A stretch of DNA of 64,000 bases from positions 1,550,001-1,614,000 of the forward strand of contig NZ_BLPG01000001.1 in the NCBI RefSeq assembly GCF_011764445.1. Direction: 5' to 3'. Origin of the DNA: Phytohabitans rumicis. Lineage in GTDB: Bacteria > Actinomycetota > Actinomycetes > Mycobacteriales > Micromonosporaceae. The translations under genes were made by a program, and so were the position numbers. The notes under the pieces were generated by a model. That model did not search any database. It was not told where the DNA came from and worked only from the letters and a program-made list of their open reading frames with translations. Below, piece after piece: positions 11,611 through 32,260 of this stretch. How positions within the stretch are numbered: position 1 is the stretch's first letter; each line of letters starts with the position of its first letter.

Positions 11611-13640
11611 TCAGGGAGTGGTGATGGCGAAGCGGTTGACGGTCACGGAGCCCCCGAGGGCCGTGGTGGCGTAGTTGAAGATGCCGAACCGGTAGCCCAT
11701 GAAGAACTGCCACGCGTTGTTGAGCGTGAACGCCGTACCGAGGTTGACGAAGTTGGTGCCGTCGGTGCTGTACGAGAAGCGGGCTTGCCGGCCGGAGCCG
11801 GGTCTGACGTCCGCGTTGACCCGTAGCCAGATCCGGCCGCCGGCGACGGCGGCGCTGGCCTGTTCGGAGCCGGTGCCGGTGGTCTGCCAGCTGGAGTTCA
11901 TGGTCAGGCCGTTGGTCATCACGACGCGGGTGGCGCCGTTGTCCCGCCGGACGCCGATCCACGCCGAGGAGTCCCGCAGCATCGCCAGGCCGGCCCGGTC
12001 GCCGTTGGCCATGCCCGCGTAGTCCAGCTCGATCGTCGCGGTGGAGGACGGGCCTTGGATGCGGTGGGTCAGCGTGTTGCGCGCTCCGTAGAGGTCGTTG
12101 GTGACGGTGGCGGTCTGCAGGCGCAGGCCGTTGTTGACCGACCACCGGGTGTTGTCCGGGTTGTGGTTCCACTCGTACTGCGGGCCCAGGGTGGTGCCGG
12201 TGAACGTGTCGGTGCCGATCATCGGCTTGACCTGCCGGGGCGGACGGGGCACGTTCGGGTACGGGTAGGAGGCGCCCCACCGGCCGTTGACCGTCTGTAG
12301 CACGGGCCAGCCGTCGCCGGTCCAGGTCACCGGAGCGAGCGCGGGCACCCGGCCGCCTGGGTAGGCGTCCACGAAGGACATGTAGTACCACTGGCCGTTC
12401 TGGGTCTGCACCAGGCCGCCCTGGTGCGGCACTCCCCCACCGGAGATCGGGCCGGGCAGGTCCAATAGCACCTGCCGCATCTCGTACGGACCGAACGGGT
12501 TGTTCGCCTTCAGCACGTACTGCCCGTTGGCCGGCCGGGTCAGCCAGATGTAGTAGCTGCCGTTGCGCTTGTAGAACCGCGCGCCCTCCAGCGTGCCCAC
12601 ACTGGAGGGGTCTGGAACACCTGCTGGCTACGCACCTGCGACAGCCCGTCCGCGGACAGCTGGGCGACGCTGATACTCGAGTTCCCGTAGGCGACGTACA
12701 TCGTGTCGTTGTCGTCGACCAGCAAGCCGGCGTCGTAGTAGCAGCCGTTGATCCGGGACCGCTTCGCCCACGGGCCTTCCACACTGGTGGCCGTGTACAC
12801 GTAGGTGCGGTTGAACTCGGTGCACCCGATCCAGTAGAACGTCCGGTTGCTCGGTCGGTAGTTGAACGCCGAGGCCCAGATCCCCTTCACGTAGGCCCGT
12901 CCGCCGGAAAGGTTGTAGGCGTTGGAGTCGAAGTCCAGGCTGGGCACCGAGTGTCCGGCGAACTCCCAGTTGACAAGATCGTAGGAGCGCAGGATCGGAG
13001 CGCCCGGCGAGTAGTGCATCGTGGACGCCGAGTAGTAGTACGCGTCACCGACCCGGATGATGTCGATGTCGGCGAAGTCCTGCCACAGCACCGGGTTGTT
13101 GAACGTGGACGATGGCGGCCAGTCGCCCGGCGGCGGGCTCGTCGGTGGCTGCGAGGTGGGCGGCACGGAGGTCGGCGGCGCCGAGGTCGGGGGCGATGAC
13201 GTGGGCGGGCCGGTTGTCGGTCCGGTGGATCCATTGCAGGCGGCGCCGTTGAGCGAGAAGCTCGCCGGGACGGCGTTGGTGCCGCCGCTCATCGAGGCGT
13301 TGAAGCCGAAGTTCGCGCTGCCGCTGGTCGGTACGTTGCCGTTCCAGCTGGCGTTCGTCACGGTCACGTCCTGGCCCGACTGGGTGTGGCTGCCGTTCCA
13401 CAGCTGGGTGATGGTCTGCGTGCCGCCGAACGACCAGGACAGCCGCCACCCGTTGATCGGGTCGCCGAGGTTGTCGACGACGACATTGGCGCCGAATCCG
13501 CCCGGCCATGAGTTCGTCACCGTGTAGGTGACCCGGCAACCGGCCGCCGCCTGGGCCGAGACGGCCGTGACGACGCCGACCGCGCTGACCGCGGCGACGA
13601 GCGTCGCGGCCAGCCCAAGTCGAAAGCGTTTGTTCTGCAC
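11611..13640 (-). CDS. Secreted CBM2 - GH43 beta-xylosidase/arabinofuranosidase; one apparent frameshift
   Basis: A signal peptide and CBM2 (about 35-140, CRVTYTVTNSWPGGF) are followed by a PTS linker of repeated PPTS units and then the GH43 domain. Catalytic motifs are DFADIDIIRVGDAYYY (base), YYDAGLLVDDND (modulator) and TLEGARFYKRNG (acid). A C-terminal concanavalin-like domain of the GH43_12 type ends near YRFGIFNYAT. The frame breaks at a G4 run (12607-12610) between QVFQTP and VGTLEGA. One added base gives TPSSVGTLEG and 677 codons including stop, so the gene is probably intact. It removes xylose or arabinose from xylo-oligosaccharides; exact specificity is not resolved. Confidence 0.85.
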
Positions 13641-16659: not shown

Positions 16660-19508
16660 TCAGGTCGTGGTGCAGGTGATGTTGGCCGGCGGGTTGTTGG
16701 CGCCGCTCACCGAGGCGATGAACCCGAATGTGGTGGAACCGCCGGCCGGAAGCGCGCCGTTGTAGGCGGCGTTGGTCACCGTCACGTTCGCGCCGCTCTG
16801 GGTGTACGTGCCGCTCCAGATCTGGTTGATGACCTGTCCATTAGGGAAGGTCCAGCTGACCGTCCAGCCCCGGATCGGCGACGACCCGGCGGTGACCGTC
16901 ACCTCCGCCTGGAAGCCGCCCGGCCACGAGCTCGTCACCGCGTACGTCGCCCGCGCGCCGGACGGCGGCGGTGAGCTAGTGGGCGGCGGTGAGGTTGTCG
17001 GGCTGACCGTCGGCGAAACCGAAGCGGTCGGGCTAACCGTCGGCGAGACGGAGACGGTGGCGCTCACGGTTGGCGACGCCGTGGCTCCCAGCCGCGCGGC
17101 GCGGTACGTGTGTCCAGCCTTGACGGTGAGCTGCACGACGTCGGTCTCTGGCCGGGTGGTGGCCGGTGTGCCGCCGTCGCCCACGTCGACGAGTGTGAAG
17201 CTGCCGGTGAACAGGCGGGCGCGCAGCCGCACCGTGCCGTCGCGGTCGGCCCGGACCAGGAGTTCGTCGGCCTGACCGCTGGTCCACGCCGCGCCGACGG
17301 TGTAGCCGCCCCTTCCTCGCAACCCGGCCACCTGCCCGGTCGCCCAGGCGGACGGCAGGGCGGGCAGCAGGTGCAGCTCGCCGTTGTGGCTCTGCAACAA
17401 CATCTCCGCGATGCCGGACGTGGCGCCGAAGTTGCCGTCGATCTGGAACGGTGGGTGCAGGTCGAACATGTTCGGCGCCAACCGGTCGGTCCGCACCAGG
17501 TCACGGATCAGCTTGTGGGCGCGGGCGCCGTCCTCCATCCGCGCCCAGTAGTTGATTTTCCAGGCGAGCGACCACCCGGTCCCGTCGTCACCGCGCAGTT
17601 CGAGGGTCCGGCGGGCGGCCTCGTACAGCTGCGGTGTGCCGCGCCGGGTGATCTGGTTGCTGGGGTGCAGCCCGTACAGGTGCGAGACGTGCCGGTGGTT
17701 CCGCTCGGTCTCCACCCAGTCGGCCAGCCACTCCTGAATGTTGCCGCGCGAGCCGACCCGCATCGGCGCCAGCCGGTCCTTGGCCGTGCGCACCTGGGTG
17801 CGGAAGGTGGTGTCCACACCGAGCACCTCACTGGCCCGGGCGACGCCTTCGAAGAGGTCGCGCAGGATCTGGTTGTCCATTGTGGGCCCCGCGCACACGC
17901 TGGCGTTGGCGTGGTGGGGCAGCTCCGGCGAGTTCGACGGGTTGGTGACCAGGTACCCGAGCGACGGATGGGCGACCAGCGTGTCGAGGAAGAACTGGGC
18001 CGCGCCTTTCATCGCCGGGTAGTTTGCGCGGAGGAACTCGACGTCGCCGGTGAACAGATAGTGGTCCCAGACCAGGGTGGACAGCCACGCACCACCGGTC
18101 TGCCACATCCCCACAACGCCCCGTCGACCACCGAGGCACCCCGCCACGCGTCGGTGTTGTGGTGGGTCACCCAACCACCCGCGCCGTACTGCGCCTGAGC
18201 CACCCGGGCGCCGGTCACCGTCAGGTCTCTGACCATGTCGAAGACGGGCAGGTAACACTCGGACAGGTTCGTGGTGTCCGTGGGCCAGTAGTTCATCGGC
18301 AGGTTGGCGTTGATGGTGTACTTCGAGTCCCACGGCGGAGCCATCGAATCGTTCCAGATGCCCTGCAGGTTGGCCGGCTGGGTACCCGGACGCGACGAGC
18401 AGATCAGCAGGTAGCGGCCGAACTGGAACAGCAACGCGGAGAACTGCGGATCGTTCACGCTCGCGTGCTGCGCGATCCGCACGTCGGTCGGCTGGTCGGC
18501 CGCCGCCGTGCGGCCCAGGTTGATCGCCACCCGGTTGAACAGCGCCTGATAGTCGGCGAGGTGCCGGCTGCGCAGCTGGTCGATGGCCACGTTTCGGGCC
18601 GCGTTGAGCCGGGTGCGCGCGATCCCTTGGTAGTCGCCGTTGACGGTGCGGAAGTTGACATAGCTGGAACCGATCGAGACCAGCACGGTCACGCTCGTCG
18701 CGGCGGAGACCCGCAGCGTGCCACCGGAACTACTCACCGTGCCACCGGTGACCGCGGCGTTGGCCAGAGCGAGGAAGCGGACCTGCCCGGTGACGCCCTC
18801 CATGTTGCCGGAGATGCCGTTCAGGCCGATCGTGGCACTGTCCGGGCTGGACACCGTCGTCCGCTGTGGACTGTCGAACGTGGCGCTGAACGTGATGGAG
18901 TTGGCCCGGTCGGCGGTCAGCCGGACCACGATCACCTGATCCGGCGCGCTCGCGAACACCTCACGCGTGTACCGCACACCGCCCTGCACATACGTGGTGG
19001 TAACCGTGGCGGTGGTCAGGTCGAGCGTCCGGTTGTACTGCGAAACCCCGCTCGCCGAGCCGACGGCCAGCCGCAGGTTGCCGACGGGCTGGTAGGCCAG
19101 CTGACCACCAGGGCTGCCCATCATGGTCTGGTTGATCAGATCCTGCGCCTGGGTCCACTGGTCGGCGAAGACCCGCCGCCGGATCTCCGCAAGGTTCGCC
19201 GCACCCCGGGTGTTGGCCGAGTCGTAGGGGCCGCCCGCCCAGACGGTGTCCTCGTTGAGCTGCAGCCGCTCGGTGTCGACGTTGCCGAACACCATCGCGC
19301 CCAGCCGGCCGTTGCCGACCGGCAGCGCCCGCAACCAATCGGCGCCGGCGGCCTCGTCGTACCACAGCGCCAGGTCGCCCGCGGCCAGCACCTGCGATGG
19401 TGCCGCCGAGTCGGCACGGGCGACCGCGGTCCAGGCCGCCGGCACGAGCGCGGCCCCGGCCCCCGCCGCCCCGGCCCTGAGCAGCTTCCTTCGTGTCACT
19501 TCAGGCAT
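16660..19508 (-). CDS. Secreted GH95 alpha-L-fucosidase/galactosidase with CBM2; one apparent frameshift
   Basis: The Tat leader (VTRRKLLRAGAAGAG) begins at ATG 19508. The N-terminal GH95 sandwich contains ALPVGNGRLGAMVFG and EDTVWAGGPYD. The (alpha/alpha)6 barrel carries NLQGIWNDSMAPPW and NANLPMNYWP, then HVSHLYGLHP and FQIDGNFGATSGI. A PTVSPT linker and CBM2 complete about 950 codons. The frame breaks at a C4 run (18109-18112) between VVDGALWG and WQTGGAWLS. One added base gives LWGMWQTGG, as in relatives, so the break is probably a read error. The family cuts alpha-1,2-linked L-fucose or L-galactose from xyloglucan side chains; which one is not resolved. Confidence 0.86.
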
Positions 19509-19530: not shown

Positions 19531-19788
19531 TTAGGGGCTAGTGCAGGTCAGCGATGGGATCGATGGCGTGCCGTCGGCGATGAAGCCGAACGTGGTCGAG
19601 GCTCCCGCGCCGAGCGTGCCGTTCCAGGCGACGTTCTTCACGGTCGCCGCGGAGCCGCTGGTGGTCAGCGTCCCGTTCCAGACCCCGCGCTGCCGCTGAC
19701 GCCGCCGCCCAACGTCGCTTCCTCCCACGGCTACGACGAGAGGCGCCGCGGCCGCGATGGGCCTGGCGATGAATCTGCGTCTCAACAT
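19531..19788 (-). pseudogene. In-frame stub: signal peptide joined to the last half of a CBM2
   Basis: An open frame of 85 codons runs from ATG 19788 (behind AGAGAGGCAG). Residues 1-24 are a leader (MLRRRFIARPIAAAAPLVV). A short Arg-rich joint follows. Residues 36-85 are the C-terminal half of a CBM2 (VWNGTLTTSGSAATV, STTFGFIADG, LTCTSP). The catalytic domain, linker and first half of the CBM2 are gone. It retains a full regulatory region upstream. It looks like an internal deletion of a cellulase or xylanase gene; a functional 85-residue secreted product is unlikely but not excluded. Confidence 0.65.
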
Positions 19789-19832
19789 CGTGGTCTGCCT
19801 CTCTGGCGAGTCGAGGGCCCGGCCGCCGCGCA

Positions 19833-19846
19833 TGTTAGCGCTAACA
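19833..19846 (-). promoter_or_regulatory. LacI-type 14-bp palindromic operator
   Basis: TGTTAGCGCTAACA is a perfect palindrome with the central CG-type half-sites of LacI/GalR operators. It lies 45 nt before the stub start and downstream of a promoter. A near copy occurs upstream of the GH10-lectin gene (25349-25362). Confidence 0.6.
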
Positions 19847-19911
19847 GTCCTCGATTCGAGCTGACCGCTTGCCCCGGTTGGGGGTACCGGAGAACGGTAG
19901 TCATCGACATA

Positions 19912-19925
19912 TGGGAGCGCTCCCC
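19912..19925 (-). promoter_or_regulatory. CebR-type operator
   Basis: TGGGAGCGCTCCCC matches 13 of 14 bases of the cellobiose-regulator (CebR) operator TGGGAGCGCTCCCA known from Streptomyces and Thermobifida cellulase genes. It sits just downstream of the promoter at 19967-19939, where binding would block transcription. Cellobiose control is inferred; no cebR gene is in the window. Confidence 0.65.
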
Positions 19926-19938
19926 ATCGATGCTTGGG

Positions 19939-19967
19939 AGATTGCCAGATTGTTTCCGTTCCTTCAA
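19939..19967 (-). promoter_or_regulatory. Promoter with an 'AAACAATCTGGCAATCT' core, first copy
   Basis: TTGAAG (19967-19962) and CAATCT (19944-19939) are 17 nt apart on the minus strand. The spacer and -10 (GAAACAATCTGGCAATCT) recur exactly in the GH10-lectin promoter at 25438-25410. It would drive the stub and possibly the GH95 gene beyond it. Confidence 0.55.
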
Positions 19968-20210
19968 GGGGCACCGCCAAACGCGTACCCATAAACGCGT
20001 TTTTAGATTGAGGACTTTCGACAACCGTCGTGAATAACACATTCTTGCTATCGAGCAGAATTAGCGAGTGGTGCACATGAGATAGAACTTTTTGTTATCT
20101 CGACCTGCGCGACTTGGTCGTGTCGGTCACCGCGCGAGTGGCGGGCGGGGGGTGGCGGGAGGCGTCCACTTGGAATGCGCCGCTCCTATCGGCCTGGTCC
20201 AACCGCAGCT

Positions 20211-20742: not shown

Positions 20743-22254
20743 TTAGCGCTGCAGGGTGAGTAGGCCTGGCCGGTAGGGCAGCAGGCCGTAGTCGCCGCCG
20801 GAGTTGGGGGCACGTCCCTGGTAGAGCAACTGCAGATTGCACGGATCAACAGTCATCGTCTGGTCCGCGTTGGAACGGATCAGCTCGCCGTGGCTGATGT
20901 CGTTGGTCCAGGTGGCGCCGCTGTTGGCCTTGCCGGCGAAGGGGTTGCTCTCGCTGGCGGCCTGGGGTGTCCACGAACCGCCCAGACTGGTCGAGGTGAA
21001 CGAGCGGAAATAGCGACCCTGCGCGCCGATCGCCTCGACGAGCATGAGGTACAGGTTCTGGCCCTGAAGCTTGTACACCTGGACCGCTTCGAACAGGTTG
21101 TTCGTCGAGTCGCTCATGATCACCGTCGAGGACGAGCCGAAACTACCCGGGAAGTTCCCGATCGGCATACTGGCCCGATAGATCTTCCCGTTGTCACCGG
21201 CGAAGAACAGATACATGGTGCTGCTGTCACCGATGACCGTCTGATCGATCGGCCCGGTGCCAGAACCCGAGATGCTCCCGGAGAACAACGTCTGCGGCGC
21301 CGACCACCCGTTCGGGTTGGTCGGATCGCTGGAGGTGCGGTACGAGAACGCCGGCCCACCCCACTGATAGGCGAGCACCCAAATATTGCGCGGCGCGAAG
21401 TAGAACAACGTCGGCGCCACCGTACCCGACGACATCCCGTTCTGACTGGCCGAGGCCATGTCCGACCAGTTCGAGAACAGGCTGAAGTTCATCGAACCCC
21501 AACTCGTACCAAAGTCATGCGTCGTGGCGTAAACCAGATGCCGACCGTTATACGGAGCATAAGTGAAGTCCTTCAACGACACCCAACCCGACCTCGGGTT
21601 CGCCAACGGACCCGTCGACGACCACCGGTAGCTCGACGGAAGGGAACACCCACCGGGCGGTGGCGTCGTCGGATTCGTCGGCGTCGTCCCGCCGAGGCGG
21701 ACCAGCTGCCACTGCTGGTTGCTGCCGCCCCAATCCGTGTACTGCACGACGTTCGCACCGTCGTTGGTCGCGGCACCCTGCACCTCGACCGCCTTGTTGC
21801 TGTTCCGGCCGATCAACCGCACGTAGCCGCCGTCCGAGTCGGCGAGCCGGAACTGCTGGTTGGCACCGTTACCGTCGGCCCACTGCACGATCGCGGCACC
21901 GTCGGCTGTCGACCAGTTGTAGACGTCCAGCACCTTGCCCGAAAGGCGGGACCTGACCCGGTAGTATCCGCCCCCGGAGTCGACGAACTGCCACTGCTGA
22001 TTGGTGCCGTCATGACGCGCCCACTGCGTGATCCGCGCACCGTCGTTGGTGGCCAGGTTGTACACGTCCAACGCCCTGCCACTGTTCCGATTCACCAGCA
22101 CATACCAGGCGGTGGTATCCACCGTGGCCGCCGACGCCGACGTCGCGGCCACCATCACCAGCGCGCCGCCCACGACCACCGCGGCAGTCACGGCGGCCAA
22201 CCCCGACCGCCACCCACGACGCCACCTCGCGGTGCGCGCAAACCCAACCGGCAT
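20743..22254 (-). CDS. Secreted ricin-B lectin - GH62 alpha-L-arabinofuranosidase
   Basis: This 503-residue protein starts at ATG 22254 with AAGGAG seven nt upstream; a longer reading from 22332 lacks such a site. The signal peptide ends near SASAATVD. A ricin-B domain with three QW-type repeats (NQQWQF, NQQFRL, NQQWQL) occupies about 48-185. After a PT linker the GH62 propeller begins [16 protein letters not shown]. The catalytic base Asp is in [12 protein letters not shown] and the acid Glu in [15 protein letters not shown]62 enzymes remove single arabinose residues from arabinoxylan. The lectin here is N-terminal, unlike most in this window. Confidence 0.93.
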
Positions 22255-22353
22255 GGCATCTCTCCTTTCACTCATCTGGAATCTCCGACATGAAGCGCGC
22301 CGCATCGGTGCGGACGCGGCCGGCACCCGCACAGACCGGCTAAACCTGTCCTT

Positions 22354-23900: not shown

Positions 23901-25565
<1,665 letters not shown>

Positions 25566-25602: not shown

Positions 25603-27188
25603 CTATCCGGCCAGTGGTGGCCGAGGGCGGAAGGATGCGTCGGCGTCAAACCCGGGACTGCCGTCCGGCGGATCCACCCAGAGCTCCGTCCCGCGGTGGC
25701 GCAGAAACGCGCCGGGGTAGTTGGACGACTCCAACGACACCGAGCCAGGGACCGCGCCCACACGTACGCAGAACGTCGCGTCCCCGCGGAACAGCTCGGT
25801 GCTGTCGTCCTGGCTCAGTCGCAGCCGCCAGGACGAGTGGCGCAGATACCTGCCGTCCTGGGCACGAAACGAGACACATCTCGGCTGTGCCAGGCCGGGA
25901 ACCACCGCGAACGTCGCACGCTTGCGGCCTTCCGTGTCGCTGCCCGCGGCGACCTGTTCCAGCACGCCGAGGTCGGCGGCGGTCGTGACCATCAATCCCG
26001 CGGCGCTGACCGACTCCAGCGACGCCCGCCCTGACGCGAAGGGGTCTGTGCCGGGGTGGACGGGCTGGCGACGCTCGGGCTCCGCGGGCTGGGCGGCTTG
26101 GGCGCGGCCGACGGCTCCGGTGCCACCGCCGGGGCCGACGCTACCGGGGCCGGCGCGGATGTCGGCGCCGCGACCGCCGGCCGGTCCGGTGATGCCGGCG
26201 TGCTCCACGTCGCCGTGGTGACCGCGGTACCGGCGACGAGCGTGGCGGCCGCGAACATCGCGGCGAAGGGGTGCGTCCCGATCGTTTGCGCCAGCTGGCC
26301 GAGCAGTCCCGCCTTCACGCCGGCGGCGACCGCGGAGCCGGTCGCCGCCGAGCCGGCAGCCGCGGCAGTTCCGCCCTTGGCGAGCACCGCGGCCGACAGC
26401 GCCAGCGGCACGGGCAGCAGTGCGAGGCCGACGATGAGCCGCTCGAGGGGCACCAGTTCGCCGGGTTCGGTGTGGGAGCAGACCGGGCACGACCGGGTGT
26501 GCCGGGTGATGCGCTTGCGCCACAGCGGGCTCGGTATGCCGTCCCAGTCCTCCAGAACGGCGCTCAGCTGCGCGCACCGGGGACTGGCTTCGAGGGCGGC
26601 GACGAGTGACCGGCTCAGGTCAAGCTGGTGGCGCATGCGCTGGACGCGCACGCCGGCGTGCGCCACGCTCGTGCCCAGCGCGGCCGCGAGCTCGGTCCTG
26701 GTCAGCTGGCCCGCGGCTTCCAGCCACCACAGCGACAGCAGGGCGCGGTCGTCCGGGTCCAGCCATCGGCTGGCACGCACCACCCGCCGGCGGCGACTGG
26801 ACAGCTCCACATGGGCCAGGGCCAGGCTTTCCGCGTCGGCGTCGGGCGGATCGGTCAGCTCGTCGAGGGGCACGGTCCGCCGTGCGTCCGCCCGCAGCCG
26901 GTGCAGGTGGGTGCTGACCTGGCGGGTCGCGATCGTCGCCAGCCACGGCCGGAAGCTCTCCGGGGTGCGCAGCGTCCGCAGCTCGCGCAGGGCCCGCAGC
27001 ATGGTGTCCTGCACGACGTCGTCGGCATCGGGCAGCACGCCCAGCGCCCGGCGCACGATGGTGTACACCAGGGGCAGGTAGGCGGCGACCAGTTCGTCGA
27101 GCGCCCGTGGATCGCCGGCCTGCGCGGCGACGACCAGGCTCGTCTCGTCGGTGCTACCGGCTCGCGTCACGAGCCTGCGGGCCGGCAC
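25603..27188 (-). CDS. ECF-type sigma factor with zinc-binding motif, membrane segments and C-terminal AbfB sugar-binding domain; one apparent frameshift
   Basis: Sigma region 2 lies at about 30-95 (DADDVVQDTMLRALREL, PWLATIATRQV) and region 4 at about 140-195 (LLSLWWLEAAG, ELAAALGTSVAHAGV). A ZAS-like zinc motif follows (His230, Cys234, Cys237 in RHTRSCPVC), as in anti-sigma factors. Hydrophobic segments sit at about 251-270 and 309-327, followed by a Pro/Ala-rich stretch. A G4 run (26041-26044) breaks the frame. One added base joins STPAQTP to FASGRASLESV and an AbfB/CBM42-type domain (about 383-528; VSFRAQDGRYLRH, SNYPGAFLRH). The total is 529 codons. The start is uncertain: GTG 27188 or 27170. 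This could be a sugar-sensing, membrane-held sigma factor; topology is unproven. Confidence 0.78.
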
Positions 27189-27382
27189 CGCGGTGGCCTG
27201 GCTTTCATGTCCATGCCAGCCGGTAGACCTGCTGCGCGGTCCGCCTCCAGTGAGCTGACCGCCTGCACGACGACGGTCTGCGTGACACCCGCGGTCGCCG
27301 CCATCGTTTGGGGGTCGATCCAGTGCTGCCGGTGGCGGGCGCGGTTCCATAGATGATGGTGCGCGTCCACGACGGCTTCCAT
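27167..27382 (-). pseudogene. N-terminal fragment of a COG3618-type amidohydrolase (fuconolactonase-like)
   Basis: ATG 27382 follows GGAGG and opens MEAVVDAHHHLWNRARH, then WIDPQTMAATAGVTQTVVV and QAVSSLE. This is the first strand and metal-binding DxHxH region of amidohydrolases such as L-fuconolactonase. About 18 residues seem missing after TMAA, and similarity ends after QAVSSLE. The remainder overlaps the proposed start of the sigma gene. The native protein is about 280 residues, so this is a stub. Confidence 0.6.
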
Positions 27383-27412
27383 CGATCCTCCGTCCAAGCG
27401 ATGTCGACAAGG

Positions 27413-27456
27413 CCGCCGCGGAGGGCAACGGGTGCCTGCGATGCCCTCCGCGGCGG
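27413..27456 (-). terminator. Hairpin terminator after the beta-helix stub
   Basis: A perfect 15-bp stem (CCGCCGCGGAGGGCA / TGCCCTCCGCGGCGG) encloses a 14-nt loop directly beyond the stop at 27465. Confidence 0.7.
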
Positions 27457-27464
27457 GGTTCGCG

Positions 27465-27965
27465 CTATGGGGTCACGGCGAAGTCGGTGAAGCTGAACTG
27501 GCCGGTCACCCCGGCGGCGTGTGAGGTGGCGATCAGGTTGAGCGTGATGTCGGTGCGGGCGAGACGGATCCGGGCCCGCTGCGCAAGCGCTCCGTCCACG
27601 TAAAGCTGGCGGGCGTCGAAGCCGGTGCCGACGTGTGCCTTGTAGATGCCGGTCGCGGCGTCGTCAAGAGCCCAGCCGGTGACCGGCTGCGCTCCACTGA
27701 GGATGGTCGCTCCGCCCGACGCGCGCCAGGTGACCGTGTGGCCGCCGCGGCCGGAGTCGGCGGCGTCGAACCGGAGCGGCTCATTCAACCGGTAGGTGCC
27801 GGCGAAGGTACCCGGGCCCCGGTCGCTGGCATTCGTGGTGCCGGCAGGTGCTACCACGATCACGTGTCTTTTGAGAGCGGCTTGTGCGGGGGGTGTGAAC
27901 GGCACGAATACTCCGGTCGCGGTCAGGGTGGCGGCCACCGCCACGGCGGCTCTCGAGGGGCGCAC
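27465..27965 (-). pseudogene. In-frame stub of a secreted beta-helix enzyme
   Basis: An open frame of 166 codons keeps a signal peptide (AVAVAATLTATGVFVPFTPP). It also keeps the N-terminal cap of a beta-helix glycosidase: NEPLRFDAADSGRGGHTV, GAQPVTGWALDDAATGIY and GFDARQLYVDGALAQRAR, closely matching residues 85-155 of the protein at 36412-38772. It then jumps to a short C-terminal end (VTGQFSFTDFAVTP). The helix and any catalytic residues are gone. It could be a real internal deletion; expression is possible since start and frame are intact. Confidence 0.6.
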
Positions 27966-28000: not shown

Positions 28001-29176
28001 TCAGCTCCGGGCAACCTCGTATACGGCGCCGCGGTCGGCGACCGCGAGCAACCGCCGGCCGGCCTGCTCCGGTCGTACGTGAGGTCCGCCCGCTGCGGGT
28101 GCCTTGCCGTTATGGGCGGCGGCGATCGCCGTCTCATCCACCTTGATGCCCAGGCCCGGCGAGTCGCCGAGGACGAAGTCGCCGTCCTCGACGTGCAGGT
28201 CCATGGCCACACCGATCGGTGGCCGGAGGTCCTGCAGCTCGCTGGCGAGGTGGTTGGGCACCGAGGTCGCGGCGTGCAGCAGGGCGACAGGTGTGTTGCC
28301 GATCGGGCTTACCGGCAGGTCGAAGGCGTGCGCCAGAGCGGCGACGCGCAGGAAATGGGTGACGCCCCAGACCGCGGCGGTCTGGACGATGTCGAGGCCG
28401 CCCGCGGCGATGAGCGGACGGAACTGCTCGAGGCCGGTCAGGTTTTCCCCGCTGGCCACCGCCGCGCGGACGCCTCGGCTGACGGCGGCCAGGCCGTCGG
28501 CGTCCCAGCGCCGGACCGGCTCCTCGATCCAGGTCAGGTCCAGGGTGCGTTCGAGCTCACCGACGTGACGGACCGCCTGCTTGCGGCTCCAGCACTCGTT
28601 CGCGTCGAGCATCAGCCCCGGCCGCATCCCGTGCGCCGCCTCGGTCAACACGTCGCGTACGAGCGTCAGCCGGTGCCGGTCCCGCTCGATATCCAGGCCG
28701 CCCTTGAGCTTGGCCGCCCGGAGTCCGCGTTGCGCGTAGATCTCGTAGGTGGCGACGAGTTCCTCGTCGGTGAGGCCGATGTCCAGGCCGGAGGCGTAGG
28801 CGTGCACCCTGCGGTCGCGGCCACCGAGCAGGCGCCACAGCGGCTCGCCGGCCGCCTGTGCCTTGATGTCCCACAAGGCGGTGTCGAACGCGCCGATCGT
28901 GCCGAACACCACACCGGCGTGGCCGGCCTTGAAGGTCTGGCGCAGCATCCGGTCGTAGAGAGCGGTCACCGCGCGCGGATCCTGACCGTCGATCGCGGCG
29001 AAGATGTTCTCGGCCTCCACGTGCGATCCGAGGCCGACGCCCGTGATCCCCTCGTCGGTGTCGACCATGATGACCCGCACGGGCATGACGCCGTCCGGGT
29101 AGACGCCGTTGGCATCGCCGACGGGTCGGCCCCATTCCTGTGCCGTCGTCAGGGTCCGGTATCCGGTGATGCGCAT
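28001..29176 (-). CDS. Mandelate racemase/muconate lactonizing (enolase superfamily) sugar-acid dehydratase
   Basis: This 391-residue cytoplasmic enzyme starts at ATG 29176, one nt after the stop of the upstream permease gene. The N-terminal capping domain contains VDTDEGITGVGLG. The barrel carries AAKLKGG (catalytic Lys region) and metal ligands in LMLDANECW, IEEPVRRWD and ASGENLTG. SPIGNTP lies near the end. It probably dehydrates an aldonic acid taken up or formed from the transported sugar. Substrate (fuconate, rhamnonate, arabinonate or another) cannot be read from sequence alone. It is the last gene of the ABC operon at 28001-32260. Confidence 0.85.
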   Translation of the reverse strand: MRITGYRTLTTAQEWGRPVGDANGVYPDGVMPVRVIMVDTDEGITGVGLGSHVEAENIFAAIDGQDPRAVTALYDRMLRQTFKAGHAGVVFGTIGAFDTALWDIKAQAAGEPLWRLLGGRDRRVHAYASGLDIGLTDEELVATYEIYAQRGLRAAKLKGGLDIERDRHRLTLVRDVLTEAAHGMRPGLMLDANECWSRKQAVRHVGELERTLDLTWIEEPVRRWDADGLAAVSRGVRAAVASGENLTGLEQFRPLIAAGGLDIVQTAAVWGVTHFLRVAALAHAFDLPVSPIGNTPVALLHAATSVPNHLASELQDLRPPIGVAMDLHVEDGDFVLGDSPGLGIKVDETAIAAAHNGKAPAAGGPHVRPEQAGRRLLAVADRGAVYEVARS

Positions 29177-29177
29177 G

Positions 29178-30005
29178 TCAGCCCTTCGTCGCACCGGCGG
29201 TCACGCCGTCGGCAATCTGGCGCTGCAGGAACAGGTAGGTCACCAACACGGGCACCGCGGCGATCAGGACGCCGGCCGCGAAGGTGGGGATGTCGTCGGA
29301 GTACTGGCCGCGCAGGGAGGTGACGCCGACCATCAGGGTGCGGTGGTCGGCCGACGGCATCATCAGCAGCGAGATGAGCACGTCGTTCCAGCAGAACAGC
29401 GCGTTGAGGATGCCCACCGACAGCAGGGCCGGCTTGCCCATCGGCAGCATGATCCGCCGGTAGACGCCGTAGACGGTGTTTCCGTCGATCCGTGCCGCGT
29501 CGATGATCTCCGCTGGCACGGCCCGGTAGTAGCTGGTCATCAGGAAGACGGTGAACGGCAGCCACTGCGCGACATAGGCGAGGATCAGCCCCGGATAGGT
29601 GTCGATCAGGGCGACGTCGGCCATGATCCGCGCCAGCGGCACCATGATCACCTGGAACGGGATGAACAGCGCCGCCAGGCAGACCAGAAACAGCGCCGAC
29701 GAGCCGCGGAACCGCAGTTTGCTCAGCGCGAAGCCGGCCATCGACCCGATGAGCAGCAGTAGCACGACGGCGCAGGTCACCACGATGAGGGAGTTGAGGA
29801 AGTACCGGGCCATGCCGGCCCTGTTCCACGCCGTGGTGATGTTCTCCCAGTGCAGGGTGTTCGTCAGCGAGAACCGGTCGAGGATGTACTCGCGGCGGGT
29901 CTTCATCGCGACATTGGCGGTGAACAGCAGCGGGTAGATCGTCGCCAGGGCGAGGGCCGCCATCGGCACCGCGACAAGCCACCTACCCAGTCGGATGCGG
30001 GACAT
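29178..30005 (-). CDS. Carbohydrate ABC transporter permease (MalG type)
   Basis: This 275-residue inner-membrane protein has six predicted helices. The EAA loop for contact with the ATPase reads EIIDAARIDGNTVYGVYRRI LP-like, in the usual place (about 185-210). ATG 30005 overlaps the stop of the MalF-type gene (TGATG), indicating coupled translation. No ATPase gene lies in this operon, so it probably uses a shared MsiK-type ATPase encoded elsewhere. Confidence 0.92.
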   Translation of the reverse strand: MSRIRLGRWLVAVPMAALALATIYPLLFTANVAMKTRREYILDRFSLTNTLHWENITTAWNRAGMARYFLNSLIVVTCAVVLLLLIGSMAGFALSKLRFRGSSALFLVCLAALFIPFQVIMVPLARIMADVALIDTYPGLILAYVAQWLPFTVFLMTSYYRAVPAEIIDAARIDGNTVYGVYRRIMLPMGKPALLSVGILNALFCWNDVLISLLMMPSADHRTLMVGVTSLRGQYSDDIPTFAAGVLIAAVPVLVTYLFLQRQIADGVTAGATKG

Positions 30006-30984
30006 CAGTCTTCCCTCCCCGCGCGGCGCAGCAGGCCGATCTGCAGCAAGCCGACGATCAGCATGATCAGGAACAGCGCCGTCGAGGCGGCCGACGCCAG
30101 TGCCGGGCGGTTCATCTGTCCCTGCTGGACCCAGATGTAGAACTCGGGCAGGTAGGTCGACCCCTCCGGGCCGCCGCCGGTCATGATGTAGAGCAGCCCG
30201 AACATCGAGGTCAGCATCCCGATCATGGTGGTGACGAAGACGAACTGGATGGTGCGGTTCAGGCCCGGGATGATGACGTGCCAGATGGTCTGCGCCAGCG
30301 AGGCACCGTCCACCCGCGAGGCGTCCAGGAGCGCGGGGTCCAGGGTGGCGAACCCGGCCAAAAACACGACCAGCGCCATGCCGAACGTCGCCCAGATCTG
30401 CACACCGACGACGGCGAAGATGGCCACCTTCGGGTCGCCGAGCCAGTCGACCGGGCCGATACCGACCCCACCGAGGAGTTCGTTCAGCGGGCCGTCGAAG
30501 GCCAGCAGCAGGTTGAAGATCGCGCCGACGATCACCGGTGAGAGCACGGCCGGGAAGAAGTAGACGCTGCGGAAGAGCCGATGTCCCGGTACACGCAGGT
30601 AGATGAACGTGGCGAGCAGTCCCGGTATCGCGACCGCTATCGGTAGCAGCAGGACAAGCAGACCCACGTTGCGCAGGGCGGTGCGAAACAGTGGATCGTC
30701 GAGCAGGTCCCGGTAGTTGTCCAGGCCCACCATGGCGCCGTTGCGCTCGCCGTCGCCGGTGAAGGAGAAGTTGACGCCCAGCAGCAGTGGCCACAGCCGC
30801 AACACCACGATGATCAGGACGGCGGGGGCCACCAGGACGTAGGGGGCGAGGCGTTCGGCCCGGCGGCCGTCGCGGGCCCGGCGGGGGCTCCCACCCGGCC
30901 GCCTGCCGGGCGACCGGTCCTTGTCCCGTCGGCCCGCCCCGCTTCGGCGGCGGGGCGGACCGACGACGAGCTACCCAGCGGCAC
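30005..30984 (-). CDS. Carbohydrate ABC transporter permease (MalF type); one apparent frameshift near the N-terminus
   Basis: Six membrane helices and an EAA loop (ALLDASRVDGASLAQTIWHV) mark a MalF/UgpA-type permease. In the visible frame the only start is GTG 30832, inside the first helix. A better GTG lies at 30984, four nt after the binding-protein stop, but in another frame. One added base in the G5 run at 30883-30887 joins the two and gives RDGRRAERLAPYVLVAPA, the normal cytoplasmic N-terminus, and 327 codons. I therefore take the gene as 30984-30005. It forms the channel with the MalG-type partner. Confidence 0.82.
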
Positions 30985-30988
30985 GAGT

Positions 30989-32260
30989 TCAACCCGCCTG
31001 GTCGGATTTGGCCAACTGCTCCACCGCCTTGTCAACGGTGATCGACCCGCTGAGCAGCTGTTGCGACAACCGCCCCATCAGCTCGATCGTCTTGGAGGAG
31101 AGCGCCACGTGCAGCGCCGGCTTGCCTTCCTTGAGGTCCGACACGATCGCGGCGACCGCGGGGCCGGCGCTGGACACGTCGATCGTGGTGTCCGAGGCGA
31201 TGGCCCCCGCGTCGGCGTAGAACGCCTTCAGCGCGTCGGTCGAGGTCAGGGACCGCACCAGGTCGGCGGCGACCGTGGGATCCTTGGTCCACTTCGCGAC
31301 CGCGTAGCCGATGCCGCCGTCGTACGGCAGGCTCGGAGTGGTACCCGGGGTCACGACCGGTGCCTTCATGACGCCGACGTTGTCGGCCTCCAGGAACTCG
31401 GCGAAGTCCTTCCAGTGCCCGATGTCCGACATCAGCCCGATGACGTGTGAGGCCTTGCTGGACTGGAACACCGCGAACGCGTCGTTGAACATCGCCGTCG
31501 AGTTGGCCCCGTCACTGTTGAGGCCCTTGTCGTTGACCTCTTTCCAGAGCGAGAAGACCCGCTTGACGTTCGGTGAGTTCCAGTTGCGCTTGCCGGCGAT
31601 CCAGTCGTCGTACTCCTGCGTCGTGAGGATGCCCGACCCGAGGCCGGACAGGAAGAACTGGATGCCGATGCCTTCCTTGTTGCCCTGCGCGAAGCACTTG
31701 GCCTTGGTCGCCTTGGTGATCGCCTGGCAGTCGGCCACGAACGTGTCCCAGGTCGTGGCCGGCTGCTCCGGGTCGAGTCCGGCCTTCCTGTAGAGCGACC
31801 TGTTGTAGTAGATGGGATGACCCTGCAGGGTCACCGGGGCGGCGTAGATCTTGCTGTCCTTGGTGAAGGCGTCCCACCCCGCCAGCCGCTGCTTGTCCTC
31901 ACCGACGTACTGATCCAGTGGCAGGAGTGCGTCCACCCGGTCGCGGATCTGCCCGCCGCCGTTGAAGAGCATGACGTCCGGCCCCTTGCCGGCCTGGATG
32001 GCCGCCCCAAGCAGCGTGTAGTACTGCTCGAACGGCTGCGCGACGAACTCCACCGTCACGCCGGAGTGCTTCTTGGCGAAGTCGGCCTTCGCCTTCTCGA
32101 TGTATGACTTCGCGGTCGCGTCGCCGGACTTCCAGTCCCAGACGACGAGCTTGCCAGTCGCACCACCGGACGGCTTGTCGCCGGAGTCCGAGGCGCTTCC
32201 GCAGCCGGCCAAGGCCAGCCCCACGATCAGGACCGCCGACCACCGTGCTCGCTGCTTCAT
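30989..32260 (-). CDS. Sugar-binding lipoprotein of the MalEFG-type ABC transporter
   Basis: This 423-residue extracytoplasmic solute-binding protein (family 1) has a lipobox LALAGC (Cys20). The typical opening LVVWDWKSGD and the motif GKGPDVMLFNGGG (oligosaccharide-binding family) are present, as is IYYNRSLYRKAGL. It is the first gene of an operon with two permeases and a sugar-acid dehydratase. A divergent GntR gene and operator lie upstream. The ligand is unknown; an oligosaccharide from plant cell wall is likely. Confidence 0.92.
   Translation of the reverse strand: MKQRARWSAVLIVGLALAGCGSASDSGDKPSGGATGKLVVWDWKSGDATAKSYIEKAKADFAKKHSGVTVEFVAQPFEQYYTLLGAAIQAGKGPDVMLFNGGGQIRDRVDALLPLDQYVGEDKQRLAGWDAFTKDSKIYAAPVTLQGHPIYYNRSLYRKAGLDPEQPATTWDTFVADCQAITKATKAKCFAQGNKEGIGIQFFLSGLGSGILTTQEYDDWIAGKRNWNSPNVKRVFSLWKEVNDKGLNSDGANSTAMFNDAFAVFQSSKASHVIGLMSDIGHWKDFAEFLEADNVGVMKAPVVTPGTTPSLPYDGGIGYAVAKWTKDPTVAADLVRSLTSTDALKAFYADAGAIASDTTIDVSSAGPAVAAIVSDLKEGKPALHVALSSKTIELMGRLSQQLLSGSITVDKAVEQLAKSDQAG

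Follow-up and report, generated by a model that had tools for sequence, protein, structure and literature searches.

A putative one-protein transcription switch for arabinose-decorated xylan in Phytohabitans rumicis, read through a probable sequence error

AbfB (CBM42) domains are of the kind that recognises the arabinose side chains of plant fibre. In a 64,000-nucleotide stretch of the Phytohabitans rumicis genome (contig NZ_BLPG01000001.1, positions 1,550,001 to 1,614,000; hereafter the window, with positions counted from its first letter), a preliminary description saw one gene that appeared to join such a domain to an ECF sigma factor by way of a zinc motif, two hydrophobic segments and a Pro-rich stalk. 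Does this locus encode a single protein that couples the sensing of a plant polysaccharide to transcription? We found every one of these parts, and in relatives they are fused in frame, but in the window they do not form a single open reading frame. We nevertheless consider it fairly likely that, behind a frame break that is probably erroneous, the locus represents a transmembrane transcription switch for arabinose-decorated xylan made of a single protein.

All of the parts are encoded on the minus strand, where the sigma ORF spans 25992-27428, with its stop at 25992, and the AbfB ORF occupies 25603-26577 in a different frame. The sigma protein likely starts at the GTG at 27168-27170, and the ORF sequence upstream of this codon shows no conservation. 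From there, sigma part through stalk run from 27170 to 26040, the Pro-rich stalk itself covering 26204-26040 in the sigma frame, and the AbfB domain extends from 26028 to 25606 in the second frame (25603 with its stop). The sigma part (26577-27170) matches Sigma70_r2 (Pfam, E 1.8e-15) and the ECF model TIGR02937 (E 1.1e-18, residues 109-269), both above cut-off, and no separate match to sigma region 4 appeared in the Pfam search of the window ORFs. As a short protein with regions 2 and 4 it is assigned, on its sequence, to the ECF sigma factors.

To place this arrangement among its relatives, we classified 109 related sequences (the window included), drawn from a scan of named genomes and a scan of 41 genomes; L038 was left out as a duplicate of L079, and L132 is cut by a contig end. 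The named loci belong to the Actinomycetota according to their tree labels. AbfB is in frame with sigma in 46 of the 109, 45 of them recognised by script and one, L049, labelled 'none' by the script, relabelled on reading and confirmed as L169. The other in-frame tails comprise 15 GH128-like, 15 CAP, six unnamed beta-rich, three beta-helix, one lysozyme-like and one GH99-like, while three sequences carry their tail out of frame (AbfB in the window, GH128 in L043, CAP in L126) and 19 have no recognised tail. Pfam names of the tails were verified on ten representatives; neither the lysozyme-like tail, which was labelled by eye, nor the beta-rich group had a Pfam match. The closest comparison is L037, from the same genus, which is 78% identical in the sigma part and has AbfB in frame. 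Among 81 genomes sampled from the window's family, at least 19 have an in-frame copy (17 in which the match extends to the profile end, and in addition G018 and G052), as do 4 of 101 genomes of the order sample. The fusion, whose absence from relatives would have counted heavily against the initial proposal, is thus genuine. In a tree of the 109 sigma regions, whose bootstrap had not settled, all AbfB sequences except L049 fall within one clade of 61 (support 99/92).

The window is the sole one of the 109 in which AbfB is out of frame, and among the loci fetched from the family and order samples AbfB in another frame occurred only at the window's own locus. When the genes of relatives were aligned to the window with tblastn, the frame changed between about 26160 and 26079-26022. 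We placed the break by eye, comparing the linkers with that of L037, at 26041-26044, the run of four identical bases already flagged in the preliminary description, where coding switches from the sigma frame to that of AbfB. A frameshift between the two halves, which if confirmed would count against a one-protein reading, is therefore present in the assembly, yet an error is its probable cause. That the AbfB half might be a shadow frame is ruled out by its constraint relative to L037 (dN/dS 0.22/0.81, compared with 0.13/0.43 in the sigma part).

The linker is one of three breaks that tblastn located in the window, the others being near 12606 in a GH43 gene (4 queries) and at 18108 in a GH95 gene (13 queries), with 36 queries for the linker itself. 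All three shift in the same direction, from frame -3 to frame -2, and all lie at or beside four-base G/C runs, the window holding 377 runs of at least four in total. The GH43 gene (11611-13640) changes frame at 12600-12612 by a four-base run and is uninterrupted in four relatives of 74-84% identity; the GH95 gene (start at 19508, minus strand) changes frame at 18105-18122 by four-G runs and is uninterrupted in 13 relatives. Under a stricter homology test, which required two query loci and 60% identity, the window had two breaks over the 21,683 bases that this specific test covers, against one in 464,817 bases of 80 other loci. The sigma-AbfB break is not counted in this test because its linker is too diverged. 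Two single-query candidates, near 21150 and 29250, were dropped under the two-locus rule.

Codon usage gave a different picture. A census of strict frame switches found 11 in 179,229 coding bases from ten stretches of the source genome (6.1 per 100 kb) and 4 in 57,721 coding bases of the window (6.9 per 100 kb), compared with 36 in 706,720 coding bases of the 80 named loci (5.1 per 100 kb). The source genome thus shows no excess in this census, which lends the error reading no support. We gave more weight to the homology test than to this cruder count and, because homology breaks number two in 21.7 kb here and one in 465 kb elsewhere, regard a sequencing or assembly error as the likeliest origin of the break, and as quite likely in its own right. 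In another genome of the genus, G091 (L156-L165), the same census gave 26 strict switches in 181,894 coding bases (14.3 per 100 kb, against 5.1 in the named loci); that assembly may be indel-rich.

The flat codon census would also fit a real break. Here the strain would have lost its sensor, leaving a lectin-free sigma/anti-sigma/membrane protein with the AbfB half as a fresh relic. Such losses have precedents close by: the window belongs to a subclade of 16 (support 100/99) that consists of itself, L037 and 14 sequences devoid of AbfB (L077, L079 and 12 from Streptomyces). In the 12 truncated Streptomyces sequences, most of which retain the first hydrophobic stretch and stop before or around the second, selection still acts on the sigma part (median dN/dS of 0.34, and 0.49 for the zinc part), therefore the sensor was lost and the sigma factor kept. 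These truncated relatives, however, stop before the membrane helix or are scrambled, and none holds an AbfB in another frame, whereas the AbfB of the window remains constrained and its frame open. The nearby GH43 and GH95 genes, broken in the same direction by similar G/C runs, and the result of the stricter homology test likewise speak against a real loss, which we consider rather unlikely. Far less plausible still is a reversible or programmed switch, in which slippage within C-rich Pro codons would toggle the sensor or ribosomes would shift frame in the linker. Breaks between sigma and an intact tail do recur in L043 and L126, and a similar one is described for the Streptomyces clavuligerus ortholog of SCO4117 in the available part of that report, whose authors suspect a sequence error (PMC5826349). 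The run is merely four bases long, however, such breaks are rare (3 of 109), and the other genes broken alike in the window implicate the assembly.

Taking the break as a probable error, we can follow the protein from its sigma part outward. The zinc motif lies at 26478-26576. The HxxxCxxC core noticed at the outset is part of a longer pattern, C-x24-H-x3-C-x2-C, which the window shares with 44 of 45 AbfB sequences, and all four of its ligands (C200, H225, C229, C232) are unchanged in each of the 29 aligned relatives. Pfam gave no zinc finger match for the window ORFs or the representatives, and it is by the four-ligand pattern that we class this part as a putative zinc anti-sigma (ZAS) domain.

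Two hydrophobic stretches follow, as had been described, and they bear on a doubt raised with them, namely that two membrane passes would leave AbfB inside the cell. The first, LIVGLALLPVPLALSAAVL (26382-26438), probably does not span the membrane. A proline sits at its centre in all 46 AbfB sequences; L066, L069, L072 and L078 have an arginine in it, and several forms that lack the second stretch retain the first, with an arginine. The second (26205-26267), free of charged residues in 45 of 46 and with a central proline in 16 of 46, is likely the sole membrane helix. Because the first stretch is always broken by proline and survives in forms without the second, a single pass with AbfB outside the cell appears likelier, and two passes with AbfB inside are disfavoured. 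The doubt is thereby largely answered, although the first stretch is the more hydrophobic of the two (Kyte-Doolittle mean 2.12 versus 1.77). We also considered a degron in the second stretch and rejected it, as its hydrophobic-Ala-Ala sequence occurs in 21 of 45 sequences, too few.

Beyond the stalk, the AbfB half matches PF05270 (E 1.2e-39) and, among PDB entries, an arabinofuranosidase (3akf, E 1.1e-18), the RsgI5 sensor (9fnk, E 4.3e-18) and fungal AbfB (1wd3, E 2.7e-14), in that order. We ran AlphaFold once, on the in-frame relative L080 aligned with 28 relatives. The predicted AbfB fold (about 90 pLDDT) has a TM-score of 0.82 to RsgI5 9fnk over the target and also matches 1wd3 and 3kmv; apart from these AbfB and zinc parts the model is poor (pTM 0.35; below 50 in stalk and helix). 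By its sequence match and predicted fold the domain is assigned to the CBM42 beta-trefoils. Its YLRH...DATF site is conserved, with H464 and D483 (L080 numbering) invariant in 29 sequences; we take these to be His416 and Asp435 of the A. kawachii AbfB (AkAbfB). Arabinofuranose side chains are the predicted ligand.

The neighbouring genes fit such a ligand, and the setting amid arabinoxylan-degrading genes that first drew attention to the locus is borne out. All on the minus strand, the next gene downstream encodes a secreted GH10 xylanase with a ricin-type lectin domain (23901-25316, ATG at about 25316; PF00331, E 4.3e-106), and further on lies a GH62 arabinofuranosidase with a ricin-type lectin domain (20743-22332; PF03664, E 6.1e-151). 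Upstream of the sigma gene are an MLE/enolase-family enzyme and an ABC sugar importer with permeases and solute-binding protein (28001-32260), an order that recurs in L066, L072 and L078. A CBM2 protein is also nearby, with an esterase match below the Pfam cut-off. Counting up to 5 kb of flanks, GH10, GH62 or GH43 accompanies 36 of 38 named in-frame loci and none of the 27 named loci that fall outside the AbfB clade and have other tails. The 38 are not independent cases because many of the Streptomyces loci are near relatives, so that the link leans heavily on one Streptomyces clade (30 of 30) and the other loci (6 of 8) weigh more. A GH10+GH62 protein is the next gene in 28 of the 38 (Pfam on L098). 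The 15 sensorless named relatives have GH10 in four, GH5 in ten and MLE in 13 of their loci.

Two short segments of the window look like debris of enzyme genes. A relic at 19531-20076 retains the C-terminal half of a CBM2 domain, together with an exact copy of a 17-mer found upstream of GH10, and is probably the remnant of a deleted enzyme gene. Between the MLE and sigma genes, a 166-aa ORF (27465-27965) opens with a signal-like sequence and matches no Pfam family; it resembles a secreted enzyme that has suffered an internal deletion.

Upstream regions yielded no ECF-type target promoter in our search, and across 29 Streptomyces loci the sequences upstream of sigma and those upstream of GH10 had no dyad or 7-mer in common beyond what a reversed-sequence null gave. 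The GH10 upstream region of the window contains a LacI-type palindrome, GTTAGCGATAAC, and a block TTGAAC-17-CAATCT, at 25350-25361 and 25410-25438. Such blocks are common to the window, L077, L079 and L081, the palindrome being present in three of the four and absent from L081; together they look like a housekeeping promoter with an operator. The exact 17-mer at 19940 and 25411, once a candidate ECF site, was rejected as part of this conserved block. That no target promoter was found would fit a view in which AbfB only anchors the protein or binds the wall and another signal, such as envelope stress, is what the sigma factor answers. In relatives the same chassis carries CAP, beta-helix or lysozyme-like tails, not all of which would sense sugars. 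That AbfB tracks arabinoxylan genes while other tails do not, and that its lectin site is conserved, makes this an improbable account.

We therefore return to the arabinoxylan switch. In the proposed mechanism, the fused zinc anti-sigma domain would hold the ECF sigma domain inactive in cis, while one membrane helix and the Pro-rich stalk would present the CBM42 lectin outside the cell. Cleavage at the membrane would follow when the lectin binds arabinofuranose side chains, or when growing xylan fragments display them; the zinc domain would be lost or displaced, and the freed sigma factor would then transcribe the nearby xylanase and arabinofuranosidase genes. The proteolytic course is suggested by analogy with RsgI and with the ECF52/ECF53 proteins.

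C-terminally extended ECF factors are indeed known in actinobacteria, as the preliminary description stated. In the available portions of the literature, ECF52 and ECF53 proteins have the same build, with sigma release by proteolysis proposed (PMC5826349, PMC8999054) and hydrolase or lectin domains predicted on them without experimental proof (PMC10766802). In-frame relatives of the window gene share this ECF52/ECF53-type architecture, a class confined to Actinobacteria (sigma, zinc domain, one or two helices, long Pro-rich C-terminal extension, extra domain); in the window the last domain is out of frame. SCO4117 of Streptomyces coelicolor (ECF52) likewise unites sigma, zinc finger, membrane region, Pro-rich stretch and a carbohydrate-binding module in one protein, and its activation by proteolysis has been proposed, but its module is smart00776 and it controls development and antibiotics, whereas here an AbfB/CBM42 domain lies by xylanase genes (PMC5826349, as excerpted). 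In ECF53 proteins, too, a zinc finger and a membrane helix are fused to the C-terminus, and some have predicted glycosyl hydrolase or carbohydrate-binding domains, comparable to our GH128-type relatives; the available parts of these descriptions name no AbfB (PMC8999054, PMC10766802). We infer that the present family is ECF53. An AbfB version of such one-piece fusions was not found in the literature searched, and the classification papers of 2015, 2019 and 2021 may name one. The sigma-AbfB protein thus fits an AbfB variant of known one-piece ECF/anti-sigma fusions, an architecture already described without AbfB.

The parallel with clostridial RsgI-SigI drawn in the preliminary description is apt because the AbfB of the window matches the solved CBM42 sensor of RsgI5. 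According to the accessible text, RsgI5 of Clostridium thermocellum is listed as RsgI_N-UNK-CBM42 (PMC4711584), and RsgI sensors, which include CBM42, GH10 and others, are cut by RseP and ClpXP (PMC12203970). Like RsgI5, the present protein would couple a CBM42 sensor outside the membrane to a sigma factor, and both systems have interchangeable sensors (in RsgI CBM3, CBM42, PA14, GH10 and others), but RsgI5-SigI5 consists of two proteins, its sigma factor is of the SigI type, and it has an RsgI N-terminal domain and a periplasmic domain that cleaves itself (PMC4711584, PMC12203970), whereas here there is one protein, of ECF type, with a zinc anti-sigma domain. No RsgI N-terminal domain appeared among the Pfam and NCBIfam matches of the window ORFs, which places the protein outside RsgI; the likeness is one of working, without common descent of the sigma parts. 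Another fusion of sigma and membrane anti-sigma, freed by proteolysis, is IutY of Pseudomonas putida (ECF243); unlike the present protein it answers an iron siderophore via an outer membrane receptor and, as far as the available description goes, has no lectin (PMC8999054).

On a broader scale, L044, L061, L064, L141, L045, L048 and L128 combine the same sigma/zinc/membrane chassis with GH128-like, Pel9A/beta-helix, GH99-like, lysozyme-like, CAP and unnamed tails. There is about an even chance that these proteins form a plug-in family of the Actinobacteria, in which one chassis carries CBM42, GH128-like, GH99-like, beta-helix, CAP, lysozyme-like or unnamed outer domains. The CBM42 form would be its arabinoxylan switch, arrived at independently of RsgI5 with a shared lectin, and gains and losses of the sensor would go together with those of the target enzymes.

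To our knowledge, the extracellular sensing of insoluble plant polysaccharides by actinomycetes is little understood. Because an outer lectin, a likely ligand and neighbouring putative target genes agree, this locus offers one definite switch that is open to direct testing. It would have a structurally known counterpart for comparison in RsgI5, and the close relatives that have the sigma factor but lack the lectin may serve as natural experiments.
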